Source of the DNA: a virus
Direction: 5' to 3' (one strand)
Length of the DNA stretch: 20,723 bases
Virus record (IMG/VR): IMGVR_UViG_3300036785_000310
Location: 1-20,723 of that record
Position 1 is the stretch's first letter. Each line of letters starts with the position of its first letter. The notes beneath the pieces were generated by a model. It made no database searches. It saw only the letters and a program-made list of their open reading frames with translations, and was not told the DNA's origin. Both the position numbers and the translations under genes were made by a program. Below, piece after piece: positions 509 to 20,723 of the stretch.

Positions 509-963
509 AACTGATTACATTTTCACTCCTGCTGCCACTGGCGCTAACTGCGCAGACTTCGCAAAAACCTCAAGTCGGAACTACATCCGCCACCGGGCCG
601 CATCAGGCAACCATCAACTGGAGCAATCCCAGTTGCACGGCTAATGCTGCATGCAGCATTCAGGCATATCGGGCGCTCTGCCCTGCCGGAAGTTGCCCAA
701 CATATACGCCGGGAAGCACACAATGGACTGCGCTTAACATGAGCAGCAATCTTTCCACCAATGCCGCCGCCACCGGAACCAGTTGGGTGTACACGGACAA
801 AGACCCTACCTTGCAGGATTCGACTACATACGGCTGGCTTGCCACTTGTACCTATGTCGGCGGAAACACAATCAGCGGAGCAAGCAGTAACTATATTGGA
901 ACAACCAACAATGGCACCCCGGCAGCGCCAACGTTAGCTTCAAGCGGAAATAGTGTTAATTAA
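505..963 (+). CDS. Secreted Cys-rich fibronectin-III-like protein, paralogue of upstream gene
   Basis: This 152-residue protein has an AAGGAG ribosome site at 491-496 and overlaps the previous stop by four bases. Residues 1-16 look like a Sec signal peptide: charged MK, a hydrophobic LITFSLLLPLAL core, then TAQ. The rest repeats the last domain of the upstream gene, including four cysteines at equivalent places and the identical block CPTYTPG. A 23-base stretch (691-713) is identical to 260-282 upstream. The C-terminus is low-complexity Thr/Ala/Pro/Ser/Asn. Export and disulphide pairing of the cysteines are inferred. It may be a virion decoration, an adhesin-like morphon or a lysogenic conversion protein. 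The family is not recognised. Confidence 0.75.
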   Translation: MKLITFSLLLPLALTAQTSQKPQVGTTSATGPHQATINWSNPSCTANAACSIQAYRALCPAGSCPTYTPGSTQWTALNMSSNLSTNAAATGTSWVYTDKDPTLQDSTTYGWLATCTYVGGNTISGASSNYIGTTNNGTPAAPTLASSGNSVN

Positions 964-989: not shown

Positions 990-1115
990 ATGACACGAAG
1001 ACAATTCACATTGCTGATGCTGGCGCTGGCACTGGCTGAAACTGAGAAGAGGAAAGCACCACCAAAACCGCCGCCGCCACCTGATCCGGGACCGGGAACA
1101 AATACGATTTCCTAA
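990..1115 (+). CDS. 41-residue peptide with twin-arginine-like leader and proline-rich tail
   Basis: ATG at 990 follows an AAAGGA ribosome site at about 975-980. The product starts MTRRQF and continues with a hydrophobic stretch (TLLMLALALA). It then turns charged and proline-rich (KAPPKPPPPPDPGPG). The T-R-R-x-F pattern resembles a Tat leader, but almost nothing follows that would need exporting. It is better described as a small membrane-anchored or secreted peptide. It is the third gene of the left plus-strand group, and its stop overlaps the 3' end of the convergent primase gene (1112-1115). The function is unknown. A chance ORF remains possible, though the ribosome site and position favour a gene. 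Confidence 0.5.
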   Translation: MTRRQFTLLMLALALAETEKRKAPPKPPPPPDPGPGTNTIS

Positions 1116-6517: not shown

Positions 6518-8081
6518 AGCGGAGCAATCCCTGTGGGATTACTTCGAATCCGGGAAGACAGGCAATCCGTTAATTTGTCTGCCTACCGGCACCGGAAAGA
6601 GTCTGGTGATCGGATGGTTTACTCAACACGTGATGGAACGGTTTCCATCATCCCGCATTCTCGCTCTGACGCACGTGAAGGAATTAATCAAACAGAATTC
6701 ATCGAAGCTTGCCGAGATTTGGCCAACTGCACCATACGGAATTTACTCCGCTGGATTAAAACAAAAAGAACACCATTGGCCTATCATCTTTGGTGGAATC
6801 GCAACCGTAGTCAATAGTGTTGATGTGCTTGGGCGCTTCGATCTGATGCTGGTTGATGAAGCGCATTTGATGAGTGGCAAGGATGATTCGATGTACGGTG
6901 AAGTGGTCAAGCATTTGCGCGATCTGAATCCGTTTCTTAAAGTGATCGGATTTACAGCAACACCGTATCGCACTGGACAGGGAATGTTAACCCAATCCGG
7001 ATTGTTCACCGATATCGCGTATGACTGTACAACAATGCAGCAGTTCAACAAATTGATCGATGATGGTTATATGTGCATGTTGATTCCCAAGCGCACCAAC
7101 ATGCAATTTGATTTAAACAAGATTCCAATTCGCAACGGCGATTTTGCACTCAACGAATTGGAAGAGAGGGTTGATCATCACGACATCAATTTCATGGCTT
7201 GCCGCGAAGCGGTTCAATGCGGGTCGAATCGTAACTGTTGGCTGACATTCGCAAGCGGAATCAAACATGCGGAGCATATAGCGGAAATGTTGAATAATTT
7301 TGGAATACCATCAGCAACTGTGCATTCAAAGATGGATTCAAAGGTGCGTGATCAACGCATTGAAGATTTTCGCGCCGGGAAGCTTCGTTGCGCAGTGACC
7401 AACAACGTACTCACTACCGGATTTGATCATCCGCCAATTGATTTGATCCTGATGTTGCGTCCAACTCTTTCCACTGGTTTGTGGGTACAGATGCTGGGCC
7501 GGGGAACAAGGCCCAGTGTCGAAACAGCGAAACAGGATTGTTTGTGTTTGGACTTCGCCGGGAATACTCCGCGCTTGGGGCCAATTAATGACCCTGTGAT
7601 TCCGCGCAGGAAAGGAAGCAAAGGAACTCCGGGTGTTGCGCCGATTCGTATTTGCGACAATTGCGGAACCTACAATCACGCCAGTGCGGTTCGATGCTAC
7701 GTGTGCGGATTTGAATTTCCGCATCAGGTGAAGATCAACGCTACAGCCGGAACAGACGAATTAGTTAAAACTGATTATCCAATGGTGCAAGAATTTAGGG
7801 TAGATCGTGCGTTGTATAGCAAAATTACGAGCAATGGTTACAATATTCTTCGAATTAATTACGTGTGTGGGTTGCGTGAGTTTAGTGAAATTTGCTGTTT
7901 GGAACATCCGGGACGAGCAGGAGGTTTAGCAGTCCAATGGTGGAAGCAGCGTATGGGAAGTGAATTGGCACCGCCAAATGTTGATGAAGCATTGGTGTGG
8001 ACATCCGGATTGGCAGTACCCGCGAAAATCCTTGTAGATGTTAATCAGAAATATCCGCGCATTGTCAAAACGGAATTTTAA
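6489..8081 (+). CDS. Superfamily 2 DEAD/DEAH-box DNA helicase
   Basis: This 530-residue helicase has motif I PTGTGKS at 32-38, motif Ia LALTHVKELI around 58-67, motif II DEAH at 123-126, motif III FTATPYR at 155-161, motif V TTGFDHP at 309-315 and motif VI QMLGRGTRP at 334-342. A zinc ribbon follows (C389-x2-C392, C403-x2-C406). The C-terminal domain contains INYVCGLREFSE and an EHPGRAGGLAVQWWKQR block typical of phage members of this group. Most such proteins are likened to the SSL2/UvsW type and remodel branched DNA. In this operon it would act with the Sak4-like ATPase, the SSB and the polymerase. The start is set by the conserved RPYQREA opening, inside the preceding gene. Confidence 0.9.
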   Translation: MLTSRPYQREAEQSLWDYFESGKTGNPLICLPTGTGKSLVIGWFTQHVMERFPSSRILALTHVKELIKQNSSKLAEIWPTAPYGIYSAGLKQKEHHWPIIFGGIATVVNSVDVLGRFDLMLVDEAHLMSGKDDSMYGEVVKHLRDLNPFLKVIGFTATPYRTGQGMLTQSGLFTDIAYDCTTMQQFNKLIDDGYMCMLIPKRTNMQFDLNKIPIRNGDFALNELEERVDHHDINFMACREAVQCGSNRNCWLTFASGIKHAEHIAEMLNNFGIPSATVHSKMDSKVRDQRIEDFRAGKLRCAVTNNVLTTGFDHPPIDLILMLRPTLSTGLWVQMLGRGTRPSVETAKQDCLCLDFAGNTPRLGPINDPVIPRRKGSKGTPGVAPIRICDNCGTYNHASAVRCYVCGFEFPHQVKINATAGTDELVKTDYPMVQEFRVDRALYSKITSNGYNILRINYVCGLREFSEICCLEHPGRAGGLAVQWWKQRMGSELAPPNVDEALVWTSGLAVPAKILVDVNQKYPRIVKTEF

Positions 8082-8098
8082 ATAACAAGGAGACACAC

Positions 8099-8494
8099 AT
8101 GGATGTAAAAGAAACGATACGATTGCTTGAGCATATACGCGATCTGGCGCAACATCAGCTTGAAGTACAATCCAACATTTATCAGCTTTTGGAAGCTAAA
8201 AACGAAGCTGATACTGAAGATGAATCGGATATTGTGGAGAGAGTTGAAAAAGTTACTCGTAGAAAGTCTCCCAGTATGAATCGTATCGATTCCGGTAACA
8301 CAAAACCACCGGAATGGGTTTTACCTCACGGTCCAAAGTTGATGGCTACTAACACTCCAGCCGAAAGAGCGAAAGTTTATAAAGATATTGCTTTGGCTGA
8401 AGGAAAAACATTGAAATCTGTTCACATGGCTGCATGGCGTTACACCAACATGATTGAACGTCAACAAGCAAAACAGCGCCTACAAACTCAGTAA
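8099..8494 (+). CDS. Hypothetical early protein, coiled-coil N-terminus with basic helical C-terminus
   Basis: This 131-residue protein has an AAGGAG ribosome site at 8087-8092. The first 35 residues form a heptad-like helix (IRLLEHIRDLAQHQLEVQSN). An acidic then basic linker follows (DTEDESDIVERVEKVTRRK). The last 55 residues are helical (TPAERAKVYKDIALAEGK, TLKSVHMAAWRYTNMIER) and could form a small helix-turn-helix-like domain. It may oligomerise and bind nucleic acid, but the family is not recognised. It lies between the helicase and a hairpin, so it could end a transcription sub-unit. Confidence 0.6.
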   Translation: MDVKETIRLLEHIRDLAQHQLEVQSNIYQLLEAKNEADTEDESDIVERVEKVTRRKSPSMNRIDSGNTKPPEWVLPHGPKLMATNTPAERAKVYKDIALAEGKTLKSVHMAAWRYTNMIERQQAKQRLQTQ

Positions 8495-8509
8495 GACCGA
8501 TTTAATAAC

Positions 8510-8554
8510 GGGGATGGTGAACTACTGATGACCAGCATCCCCACCGCCATTTTT
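8510..8554 (+). terminator. Probable intrinsic terminator or attenuator in the early operon
   Basis: GGGGATG at 8510-8516 pairs with CATCCCC at 8536-8542, extended by GGT/ACC with a small bulge. Seven bases later comes a run of five T (8550-8554). This is the most terminator-like of the three intergenic hairpins in the operon and separates the replication genes from a run of small genes. A downstream promoter was not recognised, so partial read-through is likely. Confidence 0.5.
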
Positions 8555-8578
8555 AATTGATAAGCGAGGAGTCGATAA

Positions 8579-8848
8579 ATGCCGGATGAAAAAGCAAATT
8601 CAACCAATGTGCTTCTATCGCAAATCCTTTCTGTGTCGCAAGACACACAAAAGATCGTTGCCGCAATATCAAGTTCGACAAATGAACTTGTCAACACACA
8701 ACACGCTTCGCTAAAAATACAAAACGATTGCTTCGATCTGCTGCAACAATTAGTTGATTCGATCAGCGGCGAAACACATATCTTCACCGTGAAAGTCACA
8801 CAGATTGAAAAACTCATCAACCAACTAAGTGGGCAACTCAAGAAATAA
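8579..8848 (+). CDS. Small coiled-coil protein, paralogue of the 45-residue gene beside the fibre
   Basis: This 89-residue protein has a GAGGAG-like ribosome site (8566-8571). The N-terminus (DEKA, NSTN, LLSQILSVSQD) is shared with the minus-strand gene at 12965-13102. The remainder is amphipathic helix (TQKIVAAISSSTNELVN, LLQQLVDSIS, VTQIEKLINQLSGQLKK) suggesting a trimeric or dimeric coiled coil. No enzymatic motif is present. Coiled coils of this size occur in phage structural and regulatory proteins alike. The paralogue next to the tail fibre hints at a virion or fibre-related role despite the early-operon position. Confidence 0.6.
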   Translation: MPDEKANSTNVLLSQILSVSQDTQKIVAAISSSTNELVNTQHASLKIQNDCFDLLQQLVDSISGETHIFTVKVTQIEKLINQLSGQLKK

Positions 8849-8860
8849 GGAGATTACATT

Positions 8861-9196
8861 ATGGCTGTTCAACCCGGAATTGCTTCATCATTCGCAGCAG
8901 TCCTTGAAGACAACGGAAATGCGATTGATCTACCTTCAGGATCAAGTTTTGCTTGGTCTACAGACGATCCCACGGATCAAATTGCTGTATCGGACGATAC
9001 GCTAACTGCATCCATCACTGTTAGCAGTCCCCCGGCATCGGGACGCACTACTATCACAGTTATAGCCGATACCACCGCACCGGATGGATCGGACGTTTCC
9101 GGTAGCGTTACTACTGATATCGTTCCGGGAGTCACGCATACCTATACCGTTTCAGTAAGTCAAGTATCAACGACACGAAGAGTACCCAAACGGTGA
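8861..9196 (+). CDS. Small Ig-like domain protein
   Basis: This 111-residue protein begins at ATG 8861, with AAGGAG at 8848-8853. It is a single beta-sandwich-like domain rich in Thr, Ser, Asp and Val. It has FAWSTDDPTDQIAVSDD and ITVIADTTAPDGSDVSGS, resembling bacterial Ig-like (Big) domains in which a W-S-x-D strand is followed by T-I-T-V. The tail TRRVPKR is basic. There is no signal peptide. Ig-like domains are usual on capsids and tails, so a virion decoration protein is a reasonable guess. The location between a coiled-coil gene and a membrane peptide in the early operon is unusual. Confidence 0.6.
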   Translation: MAVQPGIASSFAAVLEDNGNAIDLPSGSSFAWSTDDPTDQIAVSDDTLTASITVSSPPASGRTTITVIADTTAPDGSDVSGSVTTDIVPGVTHTYTVSVSQVSTTRRVPKR

Positions 9197-9203
9197 CAAC
9201 TTT

Positions 9204-9231
9204 GTGGGAGAGTTTTAATCAACTCTCCCAC
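9204..9231 (+). terminator. Strong 11-bp stem hairpin after the Ig-like gene
   Basis: GTGGGAGAGTT (9204-9214) and AACTCTCCCAC (9221-9231) form a perfect 11-bp stem with the six-base loop TTAATC, starting eight bases after the stop codon. No T-run follows. Instead comes GCCTATAAGGAG, the ribosome site of the next gene. It may stabilise or separate mRNA segments rather than terminate transcription. Confidence 0.5.
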
Positions 9232-9943: not shown

Positions 9944-10966
9944 ATGCCGCGCAAAGCCAAAGAATCGCAACCGGAGCTATTCAATTCTCTTCTCTCCGCT
10001 CTCGAATTTGTTTCAGTAGTTCAGCCGAAACGCGCTAAGGTTCCGGCTTATACGCATTGCCGTTTGTTTGATAAACATCTTTCGGCTTGCGGTCCAGTTC
10101 TTTCAGCTTCCATAGATATTCAAGAAGATATTGAATGTTGCCCCCAAACACAGAAGTTTTTAAAAGCTCTTCAGCAGTGTCCGGAAAGTGTAAATCTGAC
10201 ATTGTTACCTTCCAAAGAATTATCAATTAAGTCTGGTAATTTTCACGCCATAGTTCCCTGCGTAGATCAGATGGACATCCCCGCCATATTCCCGGATACC
10301 AAACAGCAATTGAAAGTTGAATTGCCATTTCAGCAAGCAATAGAAAAGATCGGACAGATTGCTGATGAGTATTCTAAATTAATTCTCTATTCGAGTGTGG
10401 TTCTGCTTGACGGATCGGTGATTGCGACAAACGGCGACATCATTTTTGAAGCATGGCATGGGTGCAGTTCGCCTCATCCTGTCATCCTTCCCAAGCTGCT
10501 TGTCTCCGCGCTACGCAGAACGAAAGGTAAAGCGGTTTACTTGATCGGATGGAGCGCTGATAGCTTCACAACCTTCTATCCGGATGGATCATGGATTAAA
10601 ACCCATCTGCAAAGCGATCCCGCCATGCCTGATCTGAAAGGATTCCTTTCCCTTCCTGCACAATTCACCCCGGCCCCGCTGGGCTTGTGGGCAGCAGTGG
10701 AACGATTAGCACCGTTCTCCGGGGACGGAAGAATTTATTTCAGAGCGAACGGTGTTTCCACGGACAGGTATGAAACAGACGGCGCAATCAATTTGTGCGA
10801 AGGATTGCCGGATGGTATTTCATTTCCGATTGCCGCACTCAGAATCATTGCACCGTTTGCCGAAAAGCTTGCATTCAATGTCACTGAGCAGATGACATAC
10901 TTTCAAGGTGATAAAGTACGGGGAGCAATTACGCAACGCGAAGAGAAACGAAATGGTATTTTTTGA
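9944..10966 (+). CDS. Beta-clamp-like DNA polymerase processivity factor
   Basis: This 340-residue protein is placed directly before the DNA polymerase. The N-terminal half has LLSALEFVSVVQ, an HCRLFD strand, and SASIDIQEDIECCPQTQKFLKALQQCP. It then has LSIKSGNFHAIVPCV, a pattern seen in divergent phage DnaN-like sliding clamps, where it forms the first clamp domain. The rest is alternating strands without catalytic motifs, consistent with repeated clamp folds. It would encircle DNA and tether the family B polymerase encoded next, whose start lies 14 bases inside this gene. The assignment rests on pattern memory and context, and a structural comparison would settle it. Confidence 0.65.
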   Translation: MPRKAKESQPELFNSLLSALEFVSVVQPKRAKVPAYTHCRLFDKHLSACGPVLSASIDIQEDIECCPQTQKFLKALQQCPESVNLTLLPSKELSIKSGNFHAIVPCVDQMDIPAIFPDTKQQLKVELPFQQAIEKIGQIADEYSKLILYSSVVLLDGSVIATNGDIIFEAWHGCSSPHPVILPKLLVSALRRTKGKAVYLIGWSADSFTTFYPDGSWIKTHLQSDPAMPDLKGFLSLPAQFTPAPLGLWAAVERLAPFSGDGRIYFRANGVSTDRYETDGAINLCEGLPDGISFPIAALRIIAPFAEKLAFNVTEQMTYFQGDKVRGAITQREEKRNGIF

Positions 10967-12968
10967 TCAAAACTTTCTGACTCCGCAAACATCAGAATTC
11001 ATCCCCACACTTCCGCCACCAGATTTATTCTCGATCCCGGATAAGTTTGAAGTTACCTACACGATCCCATCGCGAACTGAATTAACGGATACGGAACTGA
11101 TTTCAATTAAATCCGACTCTGTGTTTGTGTTCGATTCGGAAAGCTTCATCAACTATTCGCTCATCGCATTCAAGCATGTGGATTCGGGAAAATATCTGAT
11201 CTTCGAATACCCTTTCAATGCTGGAAAACTGAAATGGGTCATGCAACACTTTCTTGTCATCGGATTCAATTCACGCACCTATGATCTGCCCATAATCAGT
11301 TTGGCACTAGCCGGATTCAACAGTCGCGATCTGAAAGAAATTTCCAATCAAATCATTTTCGGAAGACTGTTCCCGTATCAGGTTGAGCAGTCTTACAAAA
11401 TCAAAATCGTAAAGTGCAATCACATCGATCTAATTGAAGTGGCTCCGCTCGATGGTTCGCTGAAGTTGTATGCCGGAAGGCTGCACTGCAAACGAATGCA
11501 GGAATTGCCACTGCCAGCAGATACCGTTTTAACGAGCGAACAAAAAATTCAAATCAAAGATTATTGCCTGAACGATACCGACAACACGGAACTTCTCTTC
11601 AACCAACTCAAGCCGCAATTGGAATTGCGCTATTCCTTGTCCAATACATACAACGTTGATCTACGATCCAAATCGGATGCGCAAATCGCTGAAGCTGTCA
11701 TCAGCAATGAATTGGAACGCTTGACTGCCAGAAAGCCGGAACGAACATTATCGGTTCCGCGATACTTCTATTACATTCCGCCGCCTCCGCTCAAATTCAG
11801 TTCTCCAGTCTTTAACGAATTGGCTAGAACGATCCGCGACACACCATTTGAACTGGACGAAACCGGAAAGGTGAAACTTCCCGAAGCGATCAGCAAATAT
11901 GCGGTGAAGTTCGATGACAATACCTACAGGATTGGCATCGGGGGATTGCACAGTTCTGAAAAGCAATCAAGACTCACAAGCGAACGGGGCATCTTGCTTT
12001 TTGACCGGGATGTTGCAAGCTATTACCCATCGATCATTCTTAATTACGAATTGTTCCCGCGTCATTTGGGGAAGCCTTTTCTTCAGGTGTACCGCAGCAT
12101 AGTTGAAAAGCGATTGACAGCAAAGGATACCGCGGACAAAGTAACCAGTGACGCATTAAAAATCACCATTAACGGCACATTCGGCAAGCTGGGCAATCGT
12201 TACTCCATTCTTTATTCGCCCGAATTGCTGATTCAAGTCACCATCAGCGGTCAACTATTCTTGCTGCAATTGATTGATATGCTTTACACCTACGGAAGTG
12301 AAAACTACATTCGCGTGAAATCCGCCAACACAGACGGCCTTTTGATTTCATGCCCTGAATACGCAGTGCAGCTAATGCGCAAAATCATTTCGAAATGGGA
12401 AAAGGAAACGGGATTCAAAACAGAGGAAACCGCATATCAGGCTATCTATTCCAGAGATGTGAACAACTACATCGGAGTGAAGAAAGACAATTCCGGAATC
12501 AAGGTGAAAGGGGCATACAGCGAACGTGGATCAAGCGGCGATTCTCCGCTCTCGCGCAACCCTGAAGCATTCATCTGTGGTGATGCGATCAAGCAATACT
12601 TAGTTAATCAAACACCTATTGAAAAGACCATCCGCGAATGCAATGATATCCGACGCTTTGTGTTTGTTCGCAACGTGCGGGGAGGTGCGCAGAAAAGCGA
12701 CAAGTATCTTGGCAAAACAATTCGATGGTATTACTCAACTGAAATGCATGGAAACATTCGCTATGTTATCAGCGGCAACAAAGTTCCGAATACTGACGGA
12801 GCAATGCCATTAATGGAGCTATGTGAATCGATTCCTGATGATCTGGATTATCGTCGCTATGTTAACAATGCGGAATGTATCCTGTGGGATATAGGTGCGA
12901 TATCGAATAAACCGCTTGATTACAATGATAAGTTCACAAATAATTTCGCGAATTACTTTGAACGCTAG
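10953..12968 (+). CDS. Family B DNA polymerase with 3'-5' exonuclease, compact
   Basis: Start ATG 10953 follows an AGAG-rich site. GTG 10908 is an earlier alternative inside the clamp gene. The 671-residue enzyme has all three exonuclease motifs: D61-x-E63 (FDSES), N106 to D111 (FNSRTYD) and Y204-xxx-D208 (YCLND). Polymerase motif A is DVASYYPS at 353-360, and motif B is KITINGTFG at 403-411. Motif C is NTDG at 459-462, where the usual D-T-D-S has Asn at the first place but keeps the catalytic Asp 461. No thumb or TPR insertions of protein-primed polymerases were recognised. It replicates the phage genome, presumably with the upstream clamp and the divergent primase. Confidence 0.9.
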   Translation: MVFFDQNFLTPQTSEFIPTLPPPDLFSIPDKFEVTYTIPSRTELTDTELISIKSDSVFVFDSESFINYSLIAFKHVDSGKYLIFEYPFNAGKLKWVMQHFLVIGFNSRTYDLPIISLALAGFNSRDLKEISNQIIFGRLFPYQVEQSYKIKIVKCNHIDLIEVAPLDGSLKLYAGRLHCKRMQELPLPADTVLTSEQKIQIKDYCLNDTDNTELLFNQLKPQLELRYSLSNTYNVDLRSKSDAQIAEAVISNELERLTARKPERTLSVPRYFYYIPPPPLKFSSPVFNELARTIRDTPFELDETGKVKLPEAISKYAVKFDDNTYRIGIGGLHSSEKQSRLTSERGILLFDRDVASYYPSIILNYELFPRHLGKPFLQVYRSIVEKRLTAKDTADKVTSDALKITINGTFGKLGNRYSILYSPELLIQVTISGQLFLLQLIDMLYTYGSENYIRVKSANTDGLLISCPEYAVQLMRKIISKWEKETGFKTEETAYQAIYSRDVNNYIGVKKDNSGIKVKGAYSERGSSGDSPLSRNPEAFICGDAIKQYLVNQTPIEKTIRECNDIRRFVFVRNVRGGAQKSDKYLGKTIRWYYSTEMHGNIRYVISGNKVPNTDGAMPLMELCESIPDDLDYRRYVNNAECILWDIGAISNKPLDYNDKFTNNFANYFER

Positions 12969-13102
12969 TAGGAGCTTATGTGCACCGAGGATGAATCTGT
13001 CACCTTCCACTGCCAAGCCACGATTAGCGCGTCTTGCGAGACGGAGAGAATTTGTGCCAGCAGCGCGTTCGTTGAGTTCGGTGGTGCTTTTTCATCTGCC
13101 AT
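12965..13102 (-). CDS. 45-residue gene with N-terminus shared with the early coiled-coil gene, truncated
   Basis: Reading the minus strand, AAGGAG precedes an ATG at 13102. The first 24 codons (DEKA, NSTN, LLAQILSVSQD) match the gene at 8579, apart from two inserted prolines. Many codons differ only at the third base (Asn, Thr, Leu, Ile, Ser, Val), so the protein frame has been selected. After Gln-Asp the similarity stops and 21 unrelated residues lead to a TAG that shares the CTAG of the polymerase stop. It appears to be a truncated or recombined relative rather than a full coiled coil. Its third positions are more GC-rich than the early copy, suggesting a separate origin. Confidence 0.55.
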   Translation of the reverse strand: MADEKAPPNSTNALLAQILSVSQDALIVAWQWKVTDSSSVHISSY

Positions 13103-13262
13103 TTTTGCTCCTTAGAATGTACTTAGTGCTGTGCGCTTCCATGTATTCCTTGGCCGTGCAAACGTAGTGATAGTTTGCATCATCGGTGAACTGCCCGAAT
13201 CGGTTTTCACATGAATCGGGCGTTCGATAATTACCTACTGAACAGGGCCTGAAACTGTTCAT
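13092..13262 (-). CDS. 56-residue cysteine-containing protein coupled to the tail fibre gene
   Basis: On the minus strand this frame begins with an ATG overlapping the fibre stop as ATGA and runs 56 codons to a TGA. The product (NSFRPCSVGNYRTPDSCENR, FGQFTDDANYHYVCTAKEYM) is polar and has three cysteines at 7, 18 and 35. It ends basic (KYILRSKNGR). It has a balanced, protein-like composition, no Shine-Dalgarno, and depends on coupling. It could be a fibre-associated chaperone or attachment factor, which often follow fibre genes, but no family is recognised. The next small gene overlaps its last 11 bases. Confidence 0.5.
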   Translation of the reverse strand: MNSFRPCSVGNYRTPDSCENRFGQFTDDANYHYVCTAKEYMEAHSTKYILRSKNGR

Positions 13263-13270
13263 TGAACAGT
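13254..13270 (-). promoter_or_regulatory. Perfect palindrome over the fibre stop / small-gene start
   Basis: On the minus strand, ACTGTTC-AAT-GAACAGT is a 7-bp stem with a three-base loop that contains the ATGA stop/start overlap. A second CTGTTC copy downstream (plus-strand 13240-13245) could instead pair with the same GAACAG. Two exclusive hairpins are therefore possible. This suggests that translation of the small gene is opened only by ribosomes finishing the fibre gene. No T-run supports a terminator. Confidence 0.4.
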
Positions 13271-16200
13271 AAAATTAGTCGCTGTCATCGTGCTTCCGCC
13301 GCTTATGCGTAAACCTGTCTGACCCGCCGCGACAATACTCGTAGTACCCGTCGCGGTGGTAGCAACACCATCAAAATATAAGGTTGCCGTTGTACCAGAT
13401 ACCGTTAAACTTACCGTGTGCGTATCCCCAACCGCCCACGTTATGTTAGCGCTGGTTCCAAGCTGAATTGTAGAACCAGTTACAGTTTGATACAGTTGGC
13501 AAGCACCAACACCGGTGGTAGGCGCACATTGCCCAATTAAATATGTATTAGCACCGCTGGCCGCACGCCCAAATACCGAGCATAGAGGGGTTGCATCCGA
13601 TACTGCATATGTGCAGGTAAGTTTTACCGTATAGTTCGCGCTTGCTGGAGTGAGCGTGTCCAGCGAATCTCCCAGCGTTGCTGAAGTCCCTGCGGCAAGA
13701 ACAATCGAACTGGTGCCGGTCAATTTTGGTATCGATTGGGTCGTTCCATCGGCAGCATATATAACGAAAGTTTTTCCTGCCTGAGTTGTATAAGAACTTA
13801 TGTTTGTTCCTGCAGTTCCAGAAAAGTTGGCAAAGTCTTGGTATCCAATCCAAGTTGCATCCTTGGCGATTCTCTGCCAGCGGTTTGGAACTGAAGCCAC
13901 ATCGTAGTAATAAAAATAACTAATATCCTGTGCGTAGTTCCCTGCCACTCCAGCCGAATTAAATGCAGTAGGTGGGAATGTGTATCCAGACGGAGCGATG
14001 TTCCTATTTTGGCTCCCGTCACTCTGCGTTTCCGTAGCAATCGTAGCTAACGGCTGGTTAATTACTGCCGCTTTAATATAGCTAGGCACAGAACAGGTTG
14101 TCTGACTGGGACACCCGTTAGTATATGCCCCGTAATAGAGAGTGGTCCGATTAAGACTCCCCATATCGAGAAGGTAGGCATCTGCAATTTGCCCAGTGGA
14201 TAAACCAAGCCCCTCGTCGTATGTCTGCGATTGCAGAGTAGGACTGGAGTCAATCTGGAAGCTATGCCCGGTCCCGTCGGTAGAAACAAAATGGTAAATG
14301 TATGGAGTTGGTATGACTACATTAGCAGGTCCGCAGTGTACCCATACGTGTAACTTTCCGCTATTCAAAAACGCAAACGCTCCCCCGCCTTCAGCGCATT
14401 GGGAATTGTGCGCTCCCGCTCCCAATATGACAGGAGCAGCCTGATACTTGGTCCATGTCACGCCTGAGTCAGAGGAAGTAGCAAGCCACTCCGCGTATCC
14501 TGTCGTGTTATCCACGCATTCATAGAGCATCCCCCAATTTGACCCGCTTATTTGCCATACAGATGTGTTGCCTGTGCTTCCAGTAACCTCTGTTCCGTTG
14601 CTCCCGCAGCGAATGACATTAGCGTGCGTGCGCGTTAAACCCGCCAAAGTCGAGCCAGTATAAATGTCTACATTTCCCGTTGCAAGTTCCGTAGCATAGA
14701 GAACGAAATTCCCACCTATTCTTGTCGGCATCAGCCAAGAACGAGCGTGATCGCTTATAATTGGCTCGGAAGATAACCGCATGGGAGGAGTGATTCCATC
14801 AGGGGACTCACCGCCGCAAATCCCGACACCTGTTCCACCCCCACCGGTATACCACCATCCGCAGGTCCACGTCATTGACACTACTTGTGAGTAAGAAGTT
14901 AGAATCTCGGGTGTTGAATTGAGCATCGCGCTTGGTTCCTGCGCCTGTGGAGAAGGATCAGCAGCAACTGGCGCTATCACCACTCCTTGACGCTGCCACT
15001 GCGCAGTAGTAGAACCACCACCGCCGCCTGTACTACCAGTATTTGTTCCCAGCGCCCAGAAATACGAACTGCCGTCATATGCGCAGTATATAGACGTGGT
15101 GTAGGTTCCACCTGAAGTATAGTGCCCGTTAGCGCTCGGAATTGTAGCGTCGGACACGTTACTTGACGCGCCTAAACTTCCGGCGTTGCACACATAGATC
15201 GGGGTTCCTGCCGCTCTATACAACGGTGCAATCGCAGTAGAGTCATTTACAAAATGACCGGCTGCGGTACTTGCAATACTCGACCATACAAAATCACCAA
15301 TCGAAGGATTCGTGTTGAATGGATTGAAAGCGGCTGTATTGTAGCTATAGAACTGTCCAAACAAGGACGAGTTTGCCAGATTCCAAACTGAACCCAGCGT
15401 ATTGTTATTATTTATATTATCCGCAGTAAATCTGATTTGACATCCGGTACAGACGAAATCACTTCGTCTTGTGCGACTTCCAAGCCATGAATCGCTGGCG
15501 TTATATAGCACTCGCAAGGCGGTACTGAAATTCTGTGAGCCAGCCACAGTAGATTCTTCCACGTACATGGCGACATCATTTCCAATCGTGCCGCCAATAT
15601 CGCCTAGAACAGAAGAGCCGTAAATTGCAACCTGCGTCCCGGTACCCATGTTGTGAATGAACCAATATTGTGGACGCGATGTGACATCTGTACTGTCATA
15701 TGCGTAGCTCAACTTTATAAGCTGATAATTCGTTCCATCAAAAATCGCCGGGGAACCTGTAGTAGACAATAGCTGGAAATTGGCCTTGTCCAGCGTGATC
15801 TCTGAATATTGATTAACAGCGTGTATCATATTTCCGGTAGTAATCGTTGAGGCAATTATTGAACCGTTGCCATAAATTGTCAGATCATAATTGTTCTCTG
15901 TGAGGCTGGTGATATTGCACTGGACGTTATAAGGCAGTCGTATATTCGGATTCTGATCTATTGCGGCCTGAAAAGCTGCTGTATCATCCGTAGAACCATT
16001 GCACACAGCGTTGTAAGGAGGATCGGTTACCAAAGCAGCGTGTGTCTCGGAATAAAAATTGTGCCCTAGACCATCTGCCTGTAGCGCACCGCGAGTGGTA
16101 ACCGGCAATCCACCAAGGACTCCTGAGTTGTTATATTGGACAGAGTTATTAACTCCACCCGGAGTTGTACCGCCGCCAGCACCCATGGTGTTCCATTGCG

Positions 16201-16717
16201 ATCCGTTCCATACTCGCGGAGCATTCAAATTCACATTAAAGTAATTTCCACCCGGAGATGGAACAGGAGACACTTCAACATCTCCATATCCATAAGACCT
16301 GCTTGCTGTAGGTGAAGACTGAAAGCGAATTGTTTGGAGATTTAATTGAGAAGTAATATCCTGAGTCGCCTGAGTGATACTAGCAACTGTTACGCTTGTG
16401 CAATTCACTGAAGCATTCGGACAAATTTTAAACTGCCAGTGTGAACCAGATGGACTGATGTAATCATTTCTTTCAATCAGCGTAGCGTTAAGCACTCCGA
16501 TTGGAGACAACGTGTAGTTATGCACTCCGGGAGTCCATGCCGTGCCGTTAAATGTGTAGATAGTTCCCTGATATCCAGTTGGCGGAACAAATGTCACCTG
16601 TACAGTTCCGTTGTTCCACGTTTGACCATCGGAGTCCGTAACAGTTGCTTGCACTGTTGAATACTGAGCCGTAGCCCGAATGCCTACAAGCAATAAGAAC
16701 CAGATAAACAGCTTCAT
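13259..16717 (-). CDS. Large modular tail fibre/spike with predicted glycan-active domains and signal peptide
   Basis: This 1152-residue protein is preceded by AGCAGG. Residues 1-18 resemble a Sec leader (MKLFIWFLLLVGIRATAQ), which is unusual for a fibre. An N-terminal beta domain (QATVTDSDGQTWNNGTVQV) follows. A linker with NSVQYNNSGVLGG lies near 191-203. A pectate-lyase-like beta helix starts at about 235 (YNAVCNGSTDDTAAFQAAI). After a glycine-rich linker (563-568), residues 575 to about 920 resemble a beta-propeller glycosidase, with EPSAM at 594 and an Asp-box SSDSGVTW at 748-755. The last 170 residues look concanavalin/laminin-G-like (VSLTVSGTTATLYFDGV). It probably binds and trims a host surface polysaccharide. 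The catalytic residues were not established. Confidence 0.8.
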   Translation of the reverse strand: MKLFIWFLLLVGIRATAQYSTVQATVTDSDGQTWNNGTVQVTFVPPTGYQGTIYTFNGTAWTPGVHNYTLSPIGVLNATLIERNDYISPSGSHWQFKICPNASVNCTSVTVASITQATQDITSQLNLQTIRFQSSPTASRSYGYGDVEVSPVPSPGGNYFNVNLNAPRVWNGSQWNTMGAGGGTTPGGVNNSVQYNNSGVLGGLPVTTRGALQADGLGHNFYSETHAALVTDPPYNAVCNGSTDDTAAFQAAIDQNPNIRLPYNVQCNITSLTENNYDLTIYGNGSIIASTITTGNMIHAVNQYSEITLDKANFQLLSTTGSPAIFDGTNYQLIKLSYAYDSTDVTSRPQYWFIHNMGTGTQVAIYGSSVLGDIGGTIGNDVAMYVEESTVAGSQNFSTALRVLYNASDSWLGSRTRRSDFVCTGCQIRFTADNINNNNTLGSVWNLANSSLFGQFYSYNTAAFNPFNTNPSIGDFVWSSIASTAAGHFVNDSTAIAPLYRAAGTPIYVCNAGSLGASSNVSDATIPSANGHYTSGGTYTTSIYCAYDGSSYFWALGTNTGSTGGGGGSTTAQWQRQGVVIAPVAADPSPQAQEPSAMLNSTPEILTSYSQVVSMTWTCGWWYTGGGGTGVGICGGESPDGITPPMRLSSEPIISDHARSWLMPTRIGGNFVLYATELATGNVDIYTGSTLAGLTRTHANVIRCGSNGTEVTGSTGNTSVWQISGSNWGMLYECVDNTTGYAEWLATSSDSGVTWTKYQAAPVILGAGAHNSQCAEGGGAFAFLNSGKLHVWVHCGPANVVIPTPYIYHFVSTDGTGHSFQIDSSPTLQSQTYDEGLGLSTGQIADAYLLDMGSLNRTTLYYGAYTNGCPSQTTCSVPSYIKAAVINQPLATIATETQSDGSQNRNIAPSGYTFPPTAFNSAGVAGNYAQDISYFYYYDVASVPNRWQRIAKDATWIGYQDFANFSGTAGTNISSYTTQAGKTFVIYAADGTTQSIPKLTGTSSIVLAAGTSATLGDSLDTLTPASANYTVKLTCTYAVSDATPLCSVFGRAASGANTYLIGQCAPTTGVGACQLYQTVTGSTIQLGTSANITWAVGDTHTVSLTVSGTTATLYFDGVATTATGTTSIVAAGQTGLRISGGSTMTATNFTVQ

Positions 16718-16733
16718 AATTTAACCTGCTCTG

Positions 16734-17327
16734 CTAACTGCCAGCAGCAAAGTAACATGCAGTACCGTTTCCATTAATCGAACCGCTACTGGCAAGACCC
16801 CAACTAAATCCGGACAATGAAATTGTTCCATCATCCACTTGAGCCAAAGATGAATTTCCACCAGATAGGCGATTTGCACTCAACACAACACCAAAGATGT
16901 GACTCGGAAATGGAATAGGAAAATTCTGACTTGCGTGTGTGCCATTAGTTATACTTGCTGTTGTTCCCATTTGAACAAGCAAACCGCTGGGACTTAATTC
17001 CCAAAAACCGTTTGAATTTTGTCCAGCAGTAAATTGGCTCATTGTAACCAAATATCCCGGTACATCGTTGTGAGTCAGTATGTTTTCCAGAGAAGTTACT
17101 AAATTCGTAAAGTTGGAATCAAGCGTGTCGTAACCCTTAGCTACCATAGCTTGGCCAATTGCAGCAACCATCACCGATAGCTGATAAAACAACTTATTCG
17201 CCAGCGGGGAACCAAATAAACCATTAACAGCCGCACCATTCAGTCGCTGAGGATCACTTCCATAGGAGCCATCCGCTTGTATGTTTGTCTGCGATTGATC
17301 CCAAATCTGAAAATTACTTGTTGGCAT
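16734..17327 (-). CDS. Tail fibre protein with gp53-like C-terminal domain
   Basis: ATG 17327 is preferred because AGAGG lies five bases before it. A GTG at 17345 would overlap the upstream gene. The 197-residue product begins PTSNFQIWDQSQTN. It then has a helical part (LANKLFYQLSVMVAAIGQAM) and a C-terminal domain whose NFPIPFPSHIFGVVLSANR, ISLSGFSWGL and ACYFAAGS match the pattern of the gp53-like receptor-binding fold. It sits between the DUF2612 baseplate gene and the large fibre, and may connect fibre to baseplate or serve as a short fibre. The C-terminal resemblance is good and the N-terminus is not recognised. Confidence 0.75.
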   Translation of the reverse strand: MPTSNFQIWDQSQTNIQADGSYGSDPQRLNGAAVNGLFGSPLANKLFYQLSVMVAAIGQAMVAKGYDTLDSNFTNLVTSLENILTHNDVPGYLVTMSQFTAGQNSNGFWELSPSGLLVQMGTTASITNGTHASQNFPIPFPSHIFGVVLSANRLSGGNSSLAQVDDGTISLSGFSWGLASSGSINGNGTACYFAAGS

Positions 17328-17335
17328 AATTACCT

Positions 17336-17947
17336 CTATGTCCACTTACCGACATCGAATCCAGAAATTACAAGTGTTTCTAAATCAAATCCAAAGAATG
17401 GCCCCGTTACTGGCGCTGTCGGAGGATTGTACAGAACACCTTCCGGACGGGGAATAATGAAACCATTCGCAATTAAGTCTTGCTCAATAGACGTAAACGA
17501 ACCTGCGATTGTAATGTTGGCCGTCATGTTCTGGTTATCCTGAACCCCAAGCACACCACCGGGAAACAGATGTCGCCAGATTTGATAAAGGGAAAGAATA
17601 GTCCCGTCCCAATGATCCTTAGCAATCGTCGCATACAAAAGAATCCTGTAGGTAGCATCATCCAATACTGGCGATACTCCTCCGGATGGTTGAAACGGAA
17701 CTGTTCTGCTGGCACCAACCAATTCACCAATCGCATCTAATTGTTTTCCTACTGCAACATCGATATCGTATGCAGCATTGAACTGTTGAATGCATGTTGT
17801 AAGATCATCAATCGGTGTCATCAGTGCTGTTTGCCATGCAATGAGATTCGGAGATAGCTTGTATTGCGAAGTGAACAGATTCACATAATAAGCAAGCAAT
17901 TGCTTCATCTGTCGAACCTGAACCGTCATTGGAGTTACCGTTGCCAT
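17336..17947 (-). CDS. DUF2612 family baseplate-associated tail protein
   Basis: ATG 17947 (MATVTPMTVQVRQM) is chosen over the TTG at 17956, which lies inside the preceding gene. The 203-residue product has the hallmark AVGKQLDAIGELVGASRTV at about 64-82. It then has DDATYRILLYATIAKDHWDGT and IWRHLFPGGV. These fit the DUF2612 family, which replaces the gp48/gpI baseplate component in Mu- or P2-like tails. The C-terminus is Pro/Gly-rich. The gene follows baseplate J at one-base spacing and precedes the fibre genes, as expected for a protein linking wedge to fibre. Confidence 0.82.
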   Translation of the reverse strand: MATVTPMTVQVRQMKQLLAYYVNLFTSQYKLSPNLIAWQTALMTPIDDLTTCIQQFNAAYDIDVAVGKQLDAIGELVGASRTVPFQPSGGVSPVLDDATYRILLYATIAKDHWDGTILSLYQIWRHLFPGGVLGVQDNQNMTANITIAGSFTSIEQDLIANGFIIPRPEGVLYNPPTAPVTGPFFGFDLETLVISGFDVGKWT

Positions 17948-17948
17948 C

Positions 17949-19133
17949 TCATACAACCGTTAGCGTAATATTCGATATAATTCCCTGTGCAACCTGATTA
18001 AAAGCGATTGGGATATCTGCCGTTCCTAACGATCCCCCGGCAATACCTGCTGTAAGCGCAGTAATGGAATATAGCGGTCTGGTGATATCCGGGGTTACTG
18101 ACATAGCCGCGCTATACAAAGCTGAAATAGTAACAATCTCTCCAATTTGAAGACTATTCAAATAGTCATTAATGGCCAATTGAATCGCGTTTGTTGTATC
18201 TGTTGTATATCCAGCGAATGAATGAATCGTGCACTGCACAGCAATATCAATGTACGTAGGTCTAAAAAACGATATCGCCATGGTTTGTTGCGTGATCGGA
18301 TCAGTCACATTGACGGTAGTAGTGCCGTTGGTAAAACATCCCGGAGTCTTATTTAAATAAATAACATTGGCAATGTCATTTGTGTTTCCACCTTCGACAA
18401 CCATGCTGATTGAATGCGGGGGATTGCCGTAGGAGTCCACTGCGCCGGTCGGATTCTCCACACCTATGGTTCCATACCTTGTGACTCCGGGAACCTGCGC
18501 TATAGCCGCCAAAGTGCCATCGACAAGGGATTGTGAAGGCAATACAACAGACAGGGATTGCCGCATCCGAAAAGCCGAATCGGTTTCGATTCCGGTTCCC
18601 GGTGTTGCAGCACTCGCATTGGTTGCGCCAGTCCAGCCGGAAACCGGATTGTACATGATGTTGATCGTGTTTGGTGGGGCCGTGATCTGTCCAAGCGCCT
18701 GACAGGTTGCGGTGACAATTGCATTCCCAAATGCGGAAAGCAAAAAACTGCTGGGAAGATTCCAAAGATTACCATTCGCATCCTGCACAACACGATTAGT
18801 TAAATGCAAATGAGCAGTGCCAGTAACCGTAATTTGCGCTGTTGATGGTGTCGATGAAGCTCTCGCAATTCCATTTAATTTATAAAGCGAATCCTGTTGC
18901 GCTCCAATTGCCGTCATTGGAAACATGCCATTGAACACTGCTTGCGCAAGCATCATGCAATCGTTAATCATCAGCGCAAAATTTGCTATGCTCTGCGTGT
19001 CCGTTGTTGAAATATTACTGATTACGGATTGGCCATAAATCGATGCGTACTGTTGCACAAGAAAATCATTAATATCGCTGTAAGACGGTACATGCAATCC
19101 AGCCGCATCTATGTAAGGCGCAAAATATGACAT
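17949..19133 (-). CDS. Baseplate J family wedge protein (Mu gp47-like)
   Basis: This 394-residue protein has AGGTGAG as ribosome site. It begins YFAPYIDAAGLHVPSYSDI and has LYKLNGIARASSTPSTAQ. It also carries GTGIETDSAFRMRQSLSV and the central AAIAQVPGVTRYGTIGVEN, all characteristic of baseplate J/gp47 proteins. The C-terminal part (PTYIDIAVQCTIHSF, AINDYLNSLQIGEIVTISALYSA) matches the family end. It forms the wedge ring around the hub in contractile-tail phages. Length is normal for the family. Neighbours gp46-like and DUF2612 are in canonical order. Confidence 0.9.
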   Translation of the reverse strand: MSYFAPYIDAAGLHVPSYSDINDFLVQQYASIYGQSVISNISTTDTQSIANFALMINDCMMLAQAVFNGMFPMTAIGAQQDSLYKLNGIARASSTPSTAQITVTGTAHLHLTNRVVQDANGNLWNLPSSFLLSAFGNAIVTATCQALGQITAPPNTINIMYNPVSGWTGATNASAATPGTGIETDSAFRMRQSLSVVLPSQSLVDGTLAAIAQVPGVTRYGTIGVENPTGAVDSYGNPPHSISMVVEGGNTNDIANVIYLNKTPGCFTNGTTTVNVTDPITQQTMAISFFRPTYIDIAVQCTIHSFAGYTTDTTNAIQLAINDYLNSLQIGEIVTISALYSAAMSVTPDITRPLYSITALTAGIAGGSLGTADIPIAFNQVAQGIISNITLTVV

Positions 19134-19137
19134 GCTC

Positions 19138-19599
19138 TCACCTGATGGTCATCTTTGTTAACGTCTGTCTCCTAGCCGCTATCGCTAATGGTGTTGTCGT
19201 AGTCACAGGAATTGCCGCTGCATTACCGGGAGCAAAGTTAACCTGCACTTCACCGAACTGTGTGTACACAATCGCAAAATAGCTAAACGTTCTGGTTAGC
19301 GAATTGTAATTCAAAGTGACATGCGCCATTCCTGTAACGTATGGAACCGCTATGATCGTTTGTTGAATTAATAAAGCAGCAACCTGCGAACTGTTTCCGG
19401 ACGTTCCAAGAACTTTCTGAAACAGAGGAAACCCCTGCGTCAAATCTGCCCACCACTCGCCTTGCAGCAAGAGCAACGATGTTTGAATCAATTGCGCAAC
19501 CGCATCCGCATCGGTAAGAAAATTCTGTTTCCCGCCGCCATAAACAGGATCGTGATTGGAGTCCAATCGCCTTACCGAAATTGTTGGTGTAGGAATCAT
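19138..19599 (-). CDS. Mu gp46/gp25-like baseplate protein
   Basis: This 153-residue protein has its start coupled by ATGA to the spike gene. It has DPVYGGGKQNFLTDADAVAQ, LIQTSLLLLQGEWWADLTQG and FPLFQKVLG. It later has IIAVPYVTGMAHVTLNYN, which are the signatures of the gp46 group of Mu-type baseplates (functionally like gp25/gpW). It joins sheath to wedge. The C-terminus is basic and Thr-rich. It is placed between spike and baseplate J as in Mu-like phages. Confidence 0.85.
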   Translation of the reverse strand: MIPTPTISVRRLDSNHDPVYGGGKQNFLTDADAVAQLIQTSLLLLQGEWWADLTQGFPLFQKVLGTSGNSSQVAALLIQQTIIAVPYVTGMAHVTLNYNSLTRTFSYFAIVYTQFGEVQVNFAPGNAAAIPVTTTTPLAIAARRQTLTKMTIR

Positions 19600-20285
19600 G
19601 GTGTGCTACTAACCTTCATGTACCAAATAACACCGTTTATGATTACCGGAAAACAAAATGTCGCATTGGTAGGAGTACCGCTAATTACACCTGTACTGGT
19701 TGTAAATTGAATCGTGCCATCGTTCCCTAAACCAATCTTAGTTTGATTGTCCATGCTTCGTAATTCAACAGCATTGGTTGAGTAATTCTGAATTCGATTC
19801 GGTTGACTGCGCGGAGCCAGAATCGCAAACCCGTCCGAAAGATCATGCCGCCTCATAAGCTCTTGGTTGCGTACAACATAGTTACCATTAACATCGGTGA
19901 TAAGATTGCCACTACCATCAACCGGAAAGCCATTTGTAGCCCATGCGTTAATACACATATCGGCAAAGCAGACATAGCATTCCGAACCAACAATATTGGG
20001 AAATGTCAGGCACCATGTAGCATCTCCGGGAAGCATCAACAGCACATCGTCCAGTTGCGGTATAGATTTAACAGTAAATCCGCCACCAGTCATGTTAATT
20101 AAGTTCTCCGCAATTGCAAGCTGAACACTGACATATTGTGTCGAAGGATGAAAAGCGGTAATGATTCCCGGCAAGCCGCAACGCATGGTTTTGGCGATTC
20201 TCTTCGCCACGCTCTTCAAGGAAAGAGCTTCAAGTTGAGTTCTCTCGCCAACCGATATTGTTCCCGAAAATGAATTGCTGCTCAT
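19596..20285 (-). CDS. Gp138-type central spike / baseplate assembly protein (Mu gp45-like)
   Basis: This 229-residue protein has RCGLPGIITAFHPSTQYVSVQLAI at about 35-58, which matches the OB-like N-terminal domain of Gp138 spike proteins. It is followed by QLDDVLLMLPGDATWCLTFP and GSECYVCFADMCINAW. The C-terminal part has short repeating strands (NAVELRSMDNQTKIGLGNDGTIQF), typical of a beta-helical needle that pierces the outer membrane. Its ATG overlaps the preceding stop by one base (TGATG). The order before gp46-like supports the call. Confidence 0.85.
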   Translation of the reverse strand: MSSNSFSGTISVGERTQLEALSLKSVAKRIAKTMRCGLPGIITAFHPSTQYVSVQLAIAENLINMTGGGFTVKSIPQLDDVLLMLPGDATWCLTFPNIVGSECYVCFADMCINAWATNGFPVDGSGNLITDVNGNYVVRNQELMRRHDLSDGFAILAPRSQPNRIQNYSTNAVELRSMDNQTKIGLGNDGTIQFTTSTGVISGTPTNATFCFPVIINGVIWYMKVSSTP

Positions 20286-20722
20286 CAGAACTGCACCTGT
20301 AGCGCCAAGATCGATGCACCGTTTATGAATCCGGTAATTTCCGTATACCAGTCATTGCCTCTTGAGTCGCCATAGTGATGAACACATCCGATTGTGTATG
20401 TGTTTCCAACCGGAGAAAGAATAGTTGGATATCTCCCTTGCTGGCGAGTCAATTGAGCAACTGTTACTCGGGAACTCAATTTAATTTGCTGCAATAATGT
20501 TGCTCTTGAATCAAGTAACACGGTAATAACTACACCTTGCTGTGTCTGCTGTGGAGTACCAATCAATCCATTCGTTTCATCGTAATTTAATTGGGAAACC
20601 GTTGTTGCTTCGCGTAAGGATCGAATATTTGCCGCCAAATTGGAAACCCAAAACAGAGCGTTGTTCGTATCAGCAACGTTTTGCAAAAAGTCTTGCGGCT
20701 GGCCGAAAATCGTAGTTGCGCG
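20285..20722 (-). CDS. Tail/baseplate hub-region protein, 5' end outside window
   Basis: The frame is open to the right edge of the window, so the TTG at 20686 is not a reliable start and the N-terminus is missing. The visible 145 residues begin RATTIFGQPQDFL. They include NIRSLREATTVSQLNYDE, a Gln-rich segment (TPQQTQQG), VVITVLLDSRATLL, and a C-terminal TYTIGCVHHYGDSRGNDW with FINGASIL. It sits immediately upstream of the spike gene, where Mu-like phages place the hub (gp44/gpD) or a small linked protein. I cannot choose between these. Confidence 0.6.
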   Translation of the reverse strand, partial: RATTIFGQPQDFLQNVADTNNALFWVSNLAANIRSLREATTVSQLNYDETNGLIGTPQQTQQGVVITVLLDSRATLLQQIKLSSRVTVAQLTRQQGRYPTILSPVGNTYTIGCVHHYGDSRGNDWYTEITGFINGASILALQVQF

Positions 20723-20723
20723 A

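Follow-up and report, generated by a model that had tools for sequence, protein, structure and literature searches.

A tail-fibre-type protein with a Sec-type leader points to fibre export in tailed phages that appear to infect Acidobacteriaceae

Results

The window analysed here is a stretch of 20,723 nucleotides of viral DNA (positions 1–20,723 of IMG/VR record IMGVR_UViG_3300036785_000310). Its minus strand carries, in this order, a Baseplate J-like wedge protein (17,949–19,133; PF04865; phrog_6, E=2e-49), a DUF2612 baseplate/structural protein (17,336–17,956; PF11041; phrog_587), a short leaderless tail fibre of 203 residues with a Gp53-like C-terminal domain and one Cys (16,734–17,345; PF21882, E=2.4e-11; PHROG tail fibre) and then P0001. 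P0001 is a leader-bearing tail-fibre-type protein of 1152 residues, read from one uninterrupted frame with an ATG start (13,259–16,717). This is the gene order of a fibre slot in Caudoviricetes, and the phage, of a soil type and judged by its Baseplate_J genes, is contractile-tailed. The initial annotation had called P0001 a fibre, and its position directly after the baseplate genes and the short fibre agrees with this. P0001 gave no significant match of any kind in Pfam, PHROG or the PDB sequences, and none to a described fibre family. A second leader-bearing, Cys-rich protein of 152 residues, recognised from its sequence and Cys count, lies on the plus strand at 505–963 (MKLITFSLLLPLALTA, followed by QTSQ).

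Residues 1–17 of P0001 (MKLFIWFLLLVGIRATA; 16,667–16,717, minus strand) form a Sec-type leader with predicted cleavage before Gln18. The three parts of a Sec/signal peptidase I leader can be read in it: Lys2, a hydrophobic core (FIWFLLLVGI) and a c-region A-T-A ahead of Gln. The best 9-residue Kyte–Doolittle mean of the core is 3.18. The leader was scored with a rule-based test of our own, not SignalP. The strict rule asks for a positive n-region, a hydrophobic core without acidic residues and small residues at −3 and −1, and P0001 passes it. The same rule was passed by 92 of 20,000 random sequences of P0001 composition, by 549 of 20,000 sequences obtained by shuffling its residues 1–30 and by one of the 104 other genes of at least 100 amino acids on the same viral contigs. 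These controls, together with conservation in relatives, rule out a chance leader, and the signal-peptide-like N-terminus described in the initial annotation is confirmed. A wrongly chosen start codon was also ruled out, as ribosome-binding sites lie upstream of the leader ATG in many relatives (TTAGGAG in L006, TAAGGA in L013, TAAGGAG in L213). Two known kinds of phage protein were considered and rejected. A SAR endolysin, which has a weakly hydrophobic, uncleaved N-terminal anchor ahead of a lysozyme domain, does not fit, since P0001 has a strong core plus a cleavage site and no lysozyme domain. Superinfection-exclusion lipoproteins of the Llp and Cor type are small and have a lipobox Cys at +1, whereas P0001 has 1152 residues and Gln at +1. 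Leader-bearing fibres are rich in Cys: their median is 2.11 per 100 residues, that of the remaining genes on these contigs 0.65 (p=1e-7).

The leader is followed by a conserved β-sandwich domain (residues 18–180; 16,178–16,666, minus strand) with a D-x-x-GQTWNNGT motif, which was delineated by alignments, AlphaFold2 and structural matches and which we propose to be a virion-docking domain. The AlphaFold2 model has a pLDDT of 84.7. It resembles the DEV collar, the A-1(L) neck fibre and the BRock tail fibre, although the resemblance is modest (best TM 0.60–0.66 by target) and Ig/transthyretin-like folds are widespread. We aligned 20 distant copies of the domain, which do not count as fully independent observations. 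A leader stands at the start in 18 of them, lies inside a fused frame in one (L023) and is missing from one (L024:5989). Gln occupies +1 in every one of the 19 leaders, as in the Q-rule of Bacteroidetes, although their cores vary, and the cleavage signature (small-x-small before Gln) is kept across the copies. Leaders are intact even in copies that are just 31–53% identical to P0001.

The first residue of the leaderless copy L024:5989 coincides with the expected start of the mature protein. A frameshift artefact was ruled out by its strong ribosome site (GGGGAGGG) and by the lack of a leader in the other frames. The domain in P0001 contains a Cys pair, Cys99 and Cys106 (ICPNASVNC; 16,400–16,423, minus strand). 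The model places these residues where two neighbouring strands end, and their co-conservation across the 20 copies suggests a disulfide that closes a β-hairpin. Both are present in 18 of the 19 leader-carrying copies and both are lost in L012. Both are also missing from L024:5989, which has no Cys in its whole 255 residues. In contigs L013–L023 the leader-like segment is internal to a longer fused frame. There it follows a domain of about 112 residues, for which no match was found in known phages, and has no conserved internal start. Dual-start genes were rejected for this group, as the sole candidate start, GTG, reads GTA in L014.

The rest of P0001 is exchangeable. Its near-twin L002 is 99.93% identical to the window over 16,170–20,723 (4.55 kb) and 99.57% identical over 11,560–13,197, with no similarity between these two blocks. 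The exchanged cassette spans 13,198–16,169, and its breakpoint falls in a Gly-rich linker near codon 183. P0001 and its L002 counterpart thus have the first ~183 codons in common and different C-termini after them, a pattern of fibres and receptor-binding proteins. The L002 cassette holds three genes, all three with leaders, one of which ends in a PHROG tail-protein motif (phrog_17312). The layout repeats in L028, where baseplate, DUF2612 and collar-type fibre genes are followed by two leader-bearing fibres. In L024 a lipoprotein-like gene is found in the same cassette. The cassette exchange, the recurrence of leaders, the Cys pair and the leader-bearing gene at 505–963 had gone unnoticed in the initial annotation.

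Three regions follow the N-terminal domain, all on the minus strand and all assigned by eye. Residues ~205–560 (15,038–16,105) are like the start of a pectate-lyase/tailspike β-helix, a likeness read at residues ~230–300 (NGSTDDTAAFQAAID...IRLPYNVQCNI); no profile matched this region. Residues ~565–955 (13,853–15,025) appear all-β, with one Asp-box-like motif (SSDSGVTW), and residues 956–1152 (13,262–13,852) bear a likeness to a laminin-G/concanavalin jelly roll. No sequence relatives of the putative propeller and laminin-G domains of the initial annotation were found in the viral contigs or in 200 Acidobacteriaceae genomes. AlphaFold2 run on residues 565–1152 without relatives was uninformative (pLDDT 33.6). 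The earlier description of at least three carbohydrate-type modules therefore stands as a visual likeness, to which neither the profile and PDB-sequence comparisons nor the model added support.

Leaders were also found on unrelated fibre modules. Leader-bearing fibres of L002, L028, L029 and L030 have a C-terminal motif in common with leaderless tail proteins of Klebsiella phages and cyanophages (phrog_17312; Klebsiella and Synechococcus phages). Where the leader is missing, the motif contains one Cys; in leader-bearing phage copies it contains a Cys pair. The extra Cys lies 15 residues N-terminal to the shared one and goes with the leader (counts 18/15/2/78, Fisher 4e-10). In the two exceptions, the leader lies further in (L042) or the Cys is at another position (L184). 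Leader-bearing copies of the motif in Bacteroidota and Verrucomicrobiota are without the extra Cys. A second case is the docking domain of L213:8693-9640 and four Acidobacteriaceae relatives. It is homologous to that of the Xanthomonas phage PBR31 tail spike, Rhodoferax phage P26218, Thalassomonas phage BA3 and Vibrio podoviruses. In those phages the domain is leaderless and starts at residue 1–2 (10 of 10 phages checked, the PBR31 spike included), but in all five Acidobacteriaceae copies that have it N-terminally a leader stands in front.

The host group of these phages appears to be Acidobacteriaceae. A direct scan of a collection of genome contigs with the N-terminal domain gave nothing. 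The domain was later matched in an Acidobacteriaceae prophage (E=1e-29), and in none of 200 Acetobacteraceae genomes. Many open frames of Acidobacteriaceae also give weak profile matches to it. The host's own predicted leaders likewise favour Gln at +1, at 40% in one Acidobacteriaceae genome where background Gln is 4%. The gene for the disulfide catalyst VKOR is present in four of four Acidobacteriaceae genomes. In the acidobacterial genome G136, however, predicted exported host proteins contain little Cys (0.56 per 100), and a high Cys content is therefore no general mark of export in that genome.

Discussion

Tailed-phage assembly is taught as entirely cytoplasmic. Structural proteins with signal peptides are known from filamentous phages (pIII and pVIII), where the particle takes them up from the envelope. 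Those phages are extruded through the membrane, whereas the P0001 phage is contractile-tailed with Baseplate_J genes. Phage-made Sec leaders are also known from exported endolysins kept outside the inner membrane until lysis, for example those of Oenococcus phage fOg44 and the J5a-clade Bacillus phages (PMC8878798). These are lysis enzymes, and P0001 lacks both lysozyme and amidase domains. Five genes in Porphyromonas gingivalis phages, their function unknown, encode Q-rule signal peptides too (PMC10367356). They are alike in having Gln at +1, but they were not described as fibres, whereas the genes here lie where fibre genes are expected, in phages whose hosts seem to be Acidobacteriaceae. 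We found no precedent for exported tailed-phage fibres in the literature searched, and such absence is no proof.

The initial annotation had left a choice between a leader retained in the virion as a hydrophobic anchor and a protein that is exported and joined later. From the comparative evidence, we conclude that P0001 is very probably exported through Sec. Retention as a hydrophobic plug or trimer contact in a fibre built in the cytoplasm is improbable, although tailed-phage fibres normally fold there. The internal segments of L013–L023, with no start codon at that place in L014, fit a retained hydrophobic segment better than export followed by joining. Export is favoured because the cleavage signature is kept while the core drifts, a constancy that a buried contact does not need, and because the leaderless copy starts at the mature position. 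It is favoured further because Cys pairs track leaders in two unrelated modules and because unrelated fibre families gained leaders, some of them preceding docking domains whose copies in other phages begin at residue 1. The leader could also be a relic, captured from host secreted proteins with a carboxypeptidase-regulatory/Ig-like domain and tolerated but unused. The Ig/transthyretin-like fold of the N-terminal domain and its weak matches in many Acidobacteriaceae frames are consistent with such a capture. A relic should decay, yet the leaders are intact in highly diverged copies, and several unrelated N-domains bear them; we regard this origin as very improbable.

On balance, we favour a tail fibre that is exported, matures outside the inner membrane and then joins the virion. 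That it joins the virion we infer from the genomic slot, the cassette swapping and the docking-type domains, so this half of the initial proposal is held less firmly than export. Every argument for export holds equally for a protein that the infected cell secretes or keeps in its envelope and that never becomes part of the virion. Such a protein could mask the phage's own receptor, keeping sister phages or freed virions off the dying cell, or degrade capsule or slime and let progeny spread, with adsorption left to the short leaderless fibre. That the window phage already owns this short fibre speaks for secretion and against later joining. The lipoprotein-like gene in the L024 cassette points the same way, as do the leader-bearing proteins with phage-fibre C-terminal motifs that host bacteria, Bacteroidota above all, encode. 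Secretion alone would nevertheless leave the retained docking-type domains pointless; in L213 and its four relatives this is the very domain that opens leaderless tailspikes. Position and cassette swapping are likewise typical of receptor-binding proteins. We therefore consider secretion alone unlikely, though the likeliest of the rival readings.

For the favoured reading, the following sequence of events can be proposed. The N-terminal leader would direct P0001 to the host Sec pathway, and signal peptidase I would cut after Ala17, making Gln18 the new N-terminus. The mature fibre would fold in the periplasm, where the disulfides suggested by the Cys pattern could form with the VKOR of the host group. 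Heads and tails would assemble in the cytoplasm as usual. At lysis, holin would open the inner membrane and virions would meet the waiting fibres, which may dock through their N-terminal β-sandwich. The exchangeable part after residue 183 would determine the surface glycan that the fibre binds or cuts.

Export leaders are seen again on unrelated fibres of Acidobacteriaceae phages and prophages, and fibre export is thus probably an adaptation and not a single-gene accident. These may be a class of tailed phages with its centre in the Acidobacteriaceae, in which virion completion is divided between the cytoplasm, for heads and tails, and the periplasm, for disulfide-bonded fibres. Docking would follow only at or after lysis, and several unrelated fibre families would have gained the leader separately. 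We see the case for such a class as evenly poised. If fibres are exported first, phage assembly would gain a late periplasmic or lysis-coupled step. Disulfides could strengthen fibres in soil, cytoplasmic limits on folding and toxicity could be escaped, and the receptors of the producing cell could be covered before release. A missing signal peptide has been used as support for phage origin (PMC6199706). If the proposal is true, a leader would become a clue to receptor-binding proteins of soil phages in metagenomes and not a reason to discard them.

Leader and gene context

The 20,723-base viral contig is a fragment of a contractile-tail phage. The gene at 13259-16717 (-), marked in the initial annotation, was confirmed as one intact minus-strand frame of 1152 aa. 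Its upstream context, also on the minus strand, comprises two baseplate wedge genes (one of them Baseplate_J), a DUF2612 protein and a short fibre of 203 aa with a Gp53-like C-terminal domain. Searches of Pfam, PHROGs, annotated phage genomes and PDB sequences gave no significant match to the 1152-aa protein, and the domains proposed initially for its C-terminal two thirds are putative. Its N-terminus reads MKLFIWFLLLVGIRATA, followed after the predicted cleavage site by Q (+1). Leaders were called by a rule of our own (not SignalP), which requires the n-region to be basic, the hydrophobic core to be free of acidic residues and the cleavage site to be of the small-x-small type. The protein passes this rule, as do 92 of 20,000 random sequences of its own composition and 1 of 104 other genes of at least 100 aa on related viral contigs.

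At the other contig end, an intact Cys-rich fibronectin-like protein (505-963 (+)) begins with the leader MKLITFSLLLPLALTA, followed by Q; its neighbour at 2-508 (+), which is cut, is likewise Cys-rich and fibronectin-like. From the leader on the 505-963 protein, this phage may export more than fibres. The contig also encodes an NrS-1-type primase-like protein and a family-B-type DNA polymerase at 1112-3430 (-) and 10908-12968 (+) (phrog_3022, phrog_1252).

The N-domain and its cysteines

The first 183 residues, used as the query, matched 22 viral loci. The alignment of the N-terminal beta-sandwich (N-domain, residues 18-180) holds 20 non-redundant copies, the window's included; the others are 31-53% identical to it, and all 20 share the motif D-x-x-GQTWNNGT. 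The signal-peptide-like N-terminus proposed initially is thus a recurrent feature, with a leader at the start of 18 of the 20 copies; in one more, on the related contig L023, the leader sits within a fused frame. Gln occupies +1 in all 19 leaders despite their differing cores. The leaderless copy (L024:5989-6756) has a strong ribosome-binding site and starts MPSSTTVSG, the expected mature start; a search of its other frames found no leader.

Among the 19 leader-carrying copies, 18 have both Cys99 and Cys106, and that of L012 has lost both. Both are also lost in the leaderless copy, which is Cys-free over all 255 aa. Joint retention and joint loss are what a disulfide would leave. In an AlphaFold2 model (18 sequences, mean pLDDT 84.7), the two residues lie at the ends of neighbouring strands. 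The best structural matches of this model, all with modest scores, include the collar of phage DEV, the cyanophage A-1(L) neck fibre, the XM1 neck and several tail fibres.

Leader-bearing fibres as a class are Cys-rich: their median is 2.11 Cys per 100 aa, versus 0.65 in other genes of the same contigs and strands (p=1e-7). Even Cys counts in 13 of 18 complete leader-bearing fibres are a weak sign only. Since the exported proteins predicted for one Acidobacteriaceae genome contain few Cys (0.56 per 100), the richness belongs to these fibres and not to exported proteins generally.

Cassette exchange

Two flanks match almost exactly between the window and the related contig L002: 4,554 bases at 99.93% identity and 1,638 bases at 99.57%. 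The stretches between these flanks show no similarity. The 203-aa short fibre differs by 1 residue. Beyond the breakpoint, which lies within a Gly-rich linker near codon 183, three genes in L002 (347, 258 and 711 aa) replace the window's single gene, each headed by a leader of its own (MKLFIWFLLLVGIRATAQ, MKRLLVILVVLPLLAAKQ and MKLFKALTTFGLILLSVSCWAQ). A difference of this kind is typical of receptor-binding exchange, and here it is the leader-bearing genes that are exchanged.

Two further modules

The last L002 cassette gene ends in a 44-aa C-terminal motif of known tail proteins (phrog_17312). Leaderless copies in Klebsiella and Synechococcus phages have a single Cys, and leader-bearing copies (L002 and contigs L028-L030) have a second, 15 residues before the common one. 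Counted automatically, the 113 non-redundant motifs with a closed 5' end fell into four classes: leader plus extra Cys (18), leader without extra Cys (15), extra Cys without leader (2) and neither feature (78; Fisher 4e-10). Inspection of the two exceptions with extra Cys but no called leader showed that L042 does have a leader, deeper in the frame, and that L184 has its Cys at a different position. Bacteroidota or Verrucomicrobiota account for nearly all cases with a leader but no extra Cys. A leader-bearing fibre (MIIRNILLCAALTATCAHAQ) is also encoded by cultured Acidomonas methanolica DSM 5432 (L035:2898-5135, equal to L029), in a region viral per IMG/VR.

An Acidobacteriaceae prophage (L213:8693-15510, genome G136) carries three leader-bearing genes, then a small membrane-type gene and an endolysin. 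The first starts MLRSTALGLALLLFAGWPAACA, with predicted cleavage before QAIYPPINTPVFRALDANGKPLSGGKLYTY, and its docking domain was found in 37 known phage records. This domain starts at residue 1 or 2 in 10 of 10 inspected known phages, including the leaderless tail spike of Xanthomonas phage PBR31, whereas all five Acidobacteriaceae proteins with an N-terminal copy have a leader in front of it. The leader has thus been grafted exactly ahead of a domain that is leaderless elsewhere.

Host

The N-domain is present in Acidobacteriaceae prophages and was not found in 200 Acetobacteraceae genomes. Of 48 leaders predicted in an acidobacterial genome, 19 have Gln at +1, versus an overall Gln content of 4%; in this count the choice of cleavage site gives a slight advantage to A, Q, D or E at +1. 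VKOR is encoded in 4 of 4 Acidobacteriaceae genomes tested, and DsbB in none of them. Together, the prophages and the leader and VKOR data suggest that the host of the window's phage is probably an acidobacterium.

Proposed route

Phage proteins known to carry signal peptides include endolysins, spanins and filamentous coat proteins. Our searches of the open literature turned up no account of tailed-phage fibres that are exported. In phages of P. gingivalis, five unassigned genes encode leaders with Gln at +1 (PMC10367356), and Benler and colleagues read the absence of signal peptides as supporting the view that DGR target proteins stem from phages (PMC6199706).

One group fits an export route poorly. 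On the related contigs L013-L023, the leader-like segment lies within a longer frame, behind a domain of about 112 aa (NHNLGRLPVGYWVMQKDRACDVYTGS...RATVASAVLRLFII) fused in frame to it, and ends in SEAQ or similar (L013:2702-4060, L014:3441-4928, L015:1750-4008, L016:3746-5980, L017:1297-2688, L020-L022 and L023:5560-8958). The domain has no match in known phages, and no conserved start codon was found at the internal segments. These proteins would be either membrane-spanning fusions or cases of a leader turned linker.

Other genes accompany the leader-bearing fibres. In the fibre cassette of L024, the gene at 6760-9204 (+) has a lipoprotein-like leader (REFTVIALAALMMSAC, then AS) with DUF4185-like and carboxypeptidase-regulatory domains. 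ATP-grasp-like enzymes directly precede leader-bearing fibres on three viral contigs (L009:1721-3196, L012:4063-5882 and L024:4557-5828), with a GARS_A match in L024 and an acetyltransferase-like gene alongside in L012.

Export of the leader-bearing fibres is well supported by comparison of the predicted proteins. The main rival to a virion fibre accepts this export, and has the protein act on the cell or what surrounds it, without ever becoming part of the virion. Where the gene lies, the cassette swap, the retention of docking domains and the N-domain fold lead us to infer that the fibre is a virion component. Sec would export the protein, and cleavage would expose Gln18 as the N-terminus of the mature fibre, which would fold in the periplasm, aided by disulfides. 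Lysis would then join the compartments, and the fibre would dock onto the virion.
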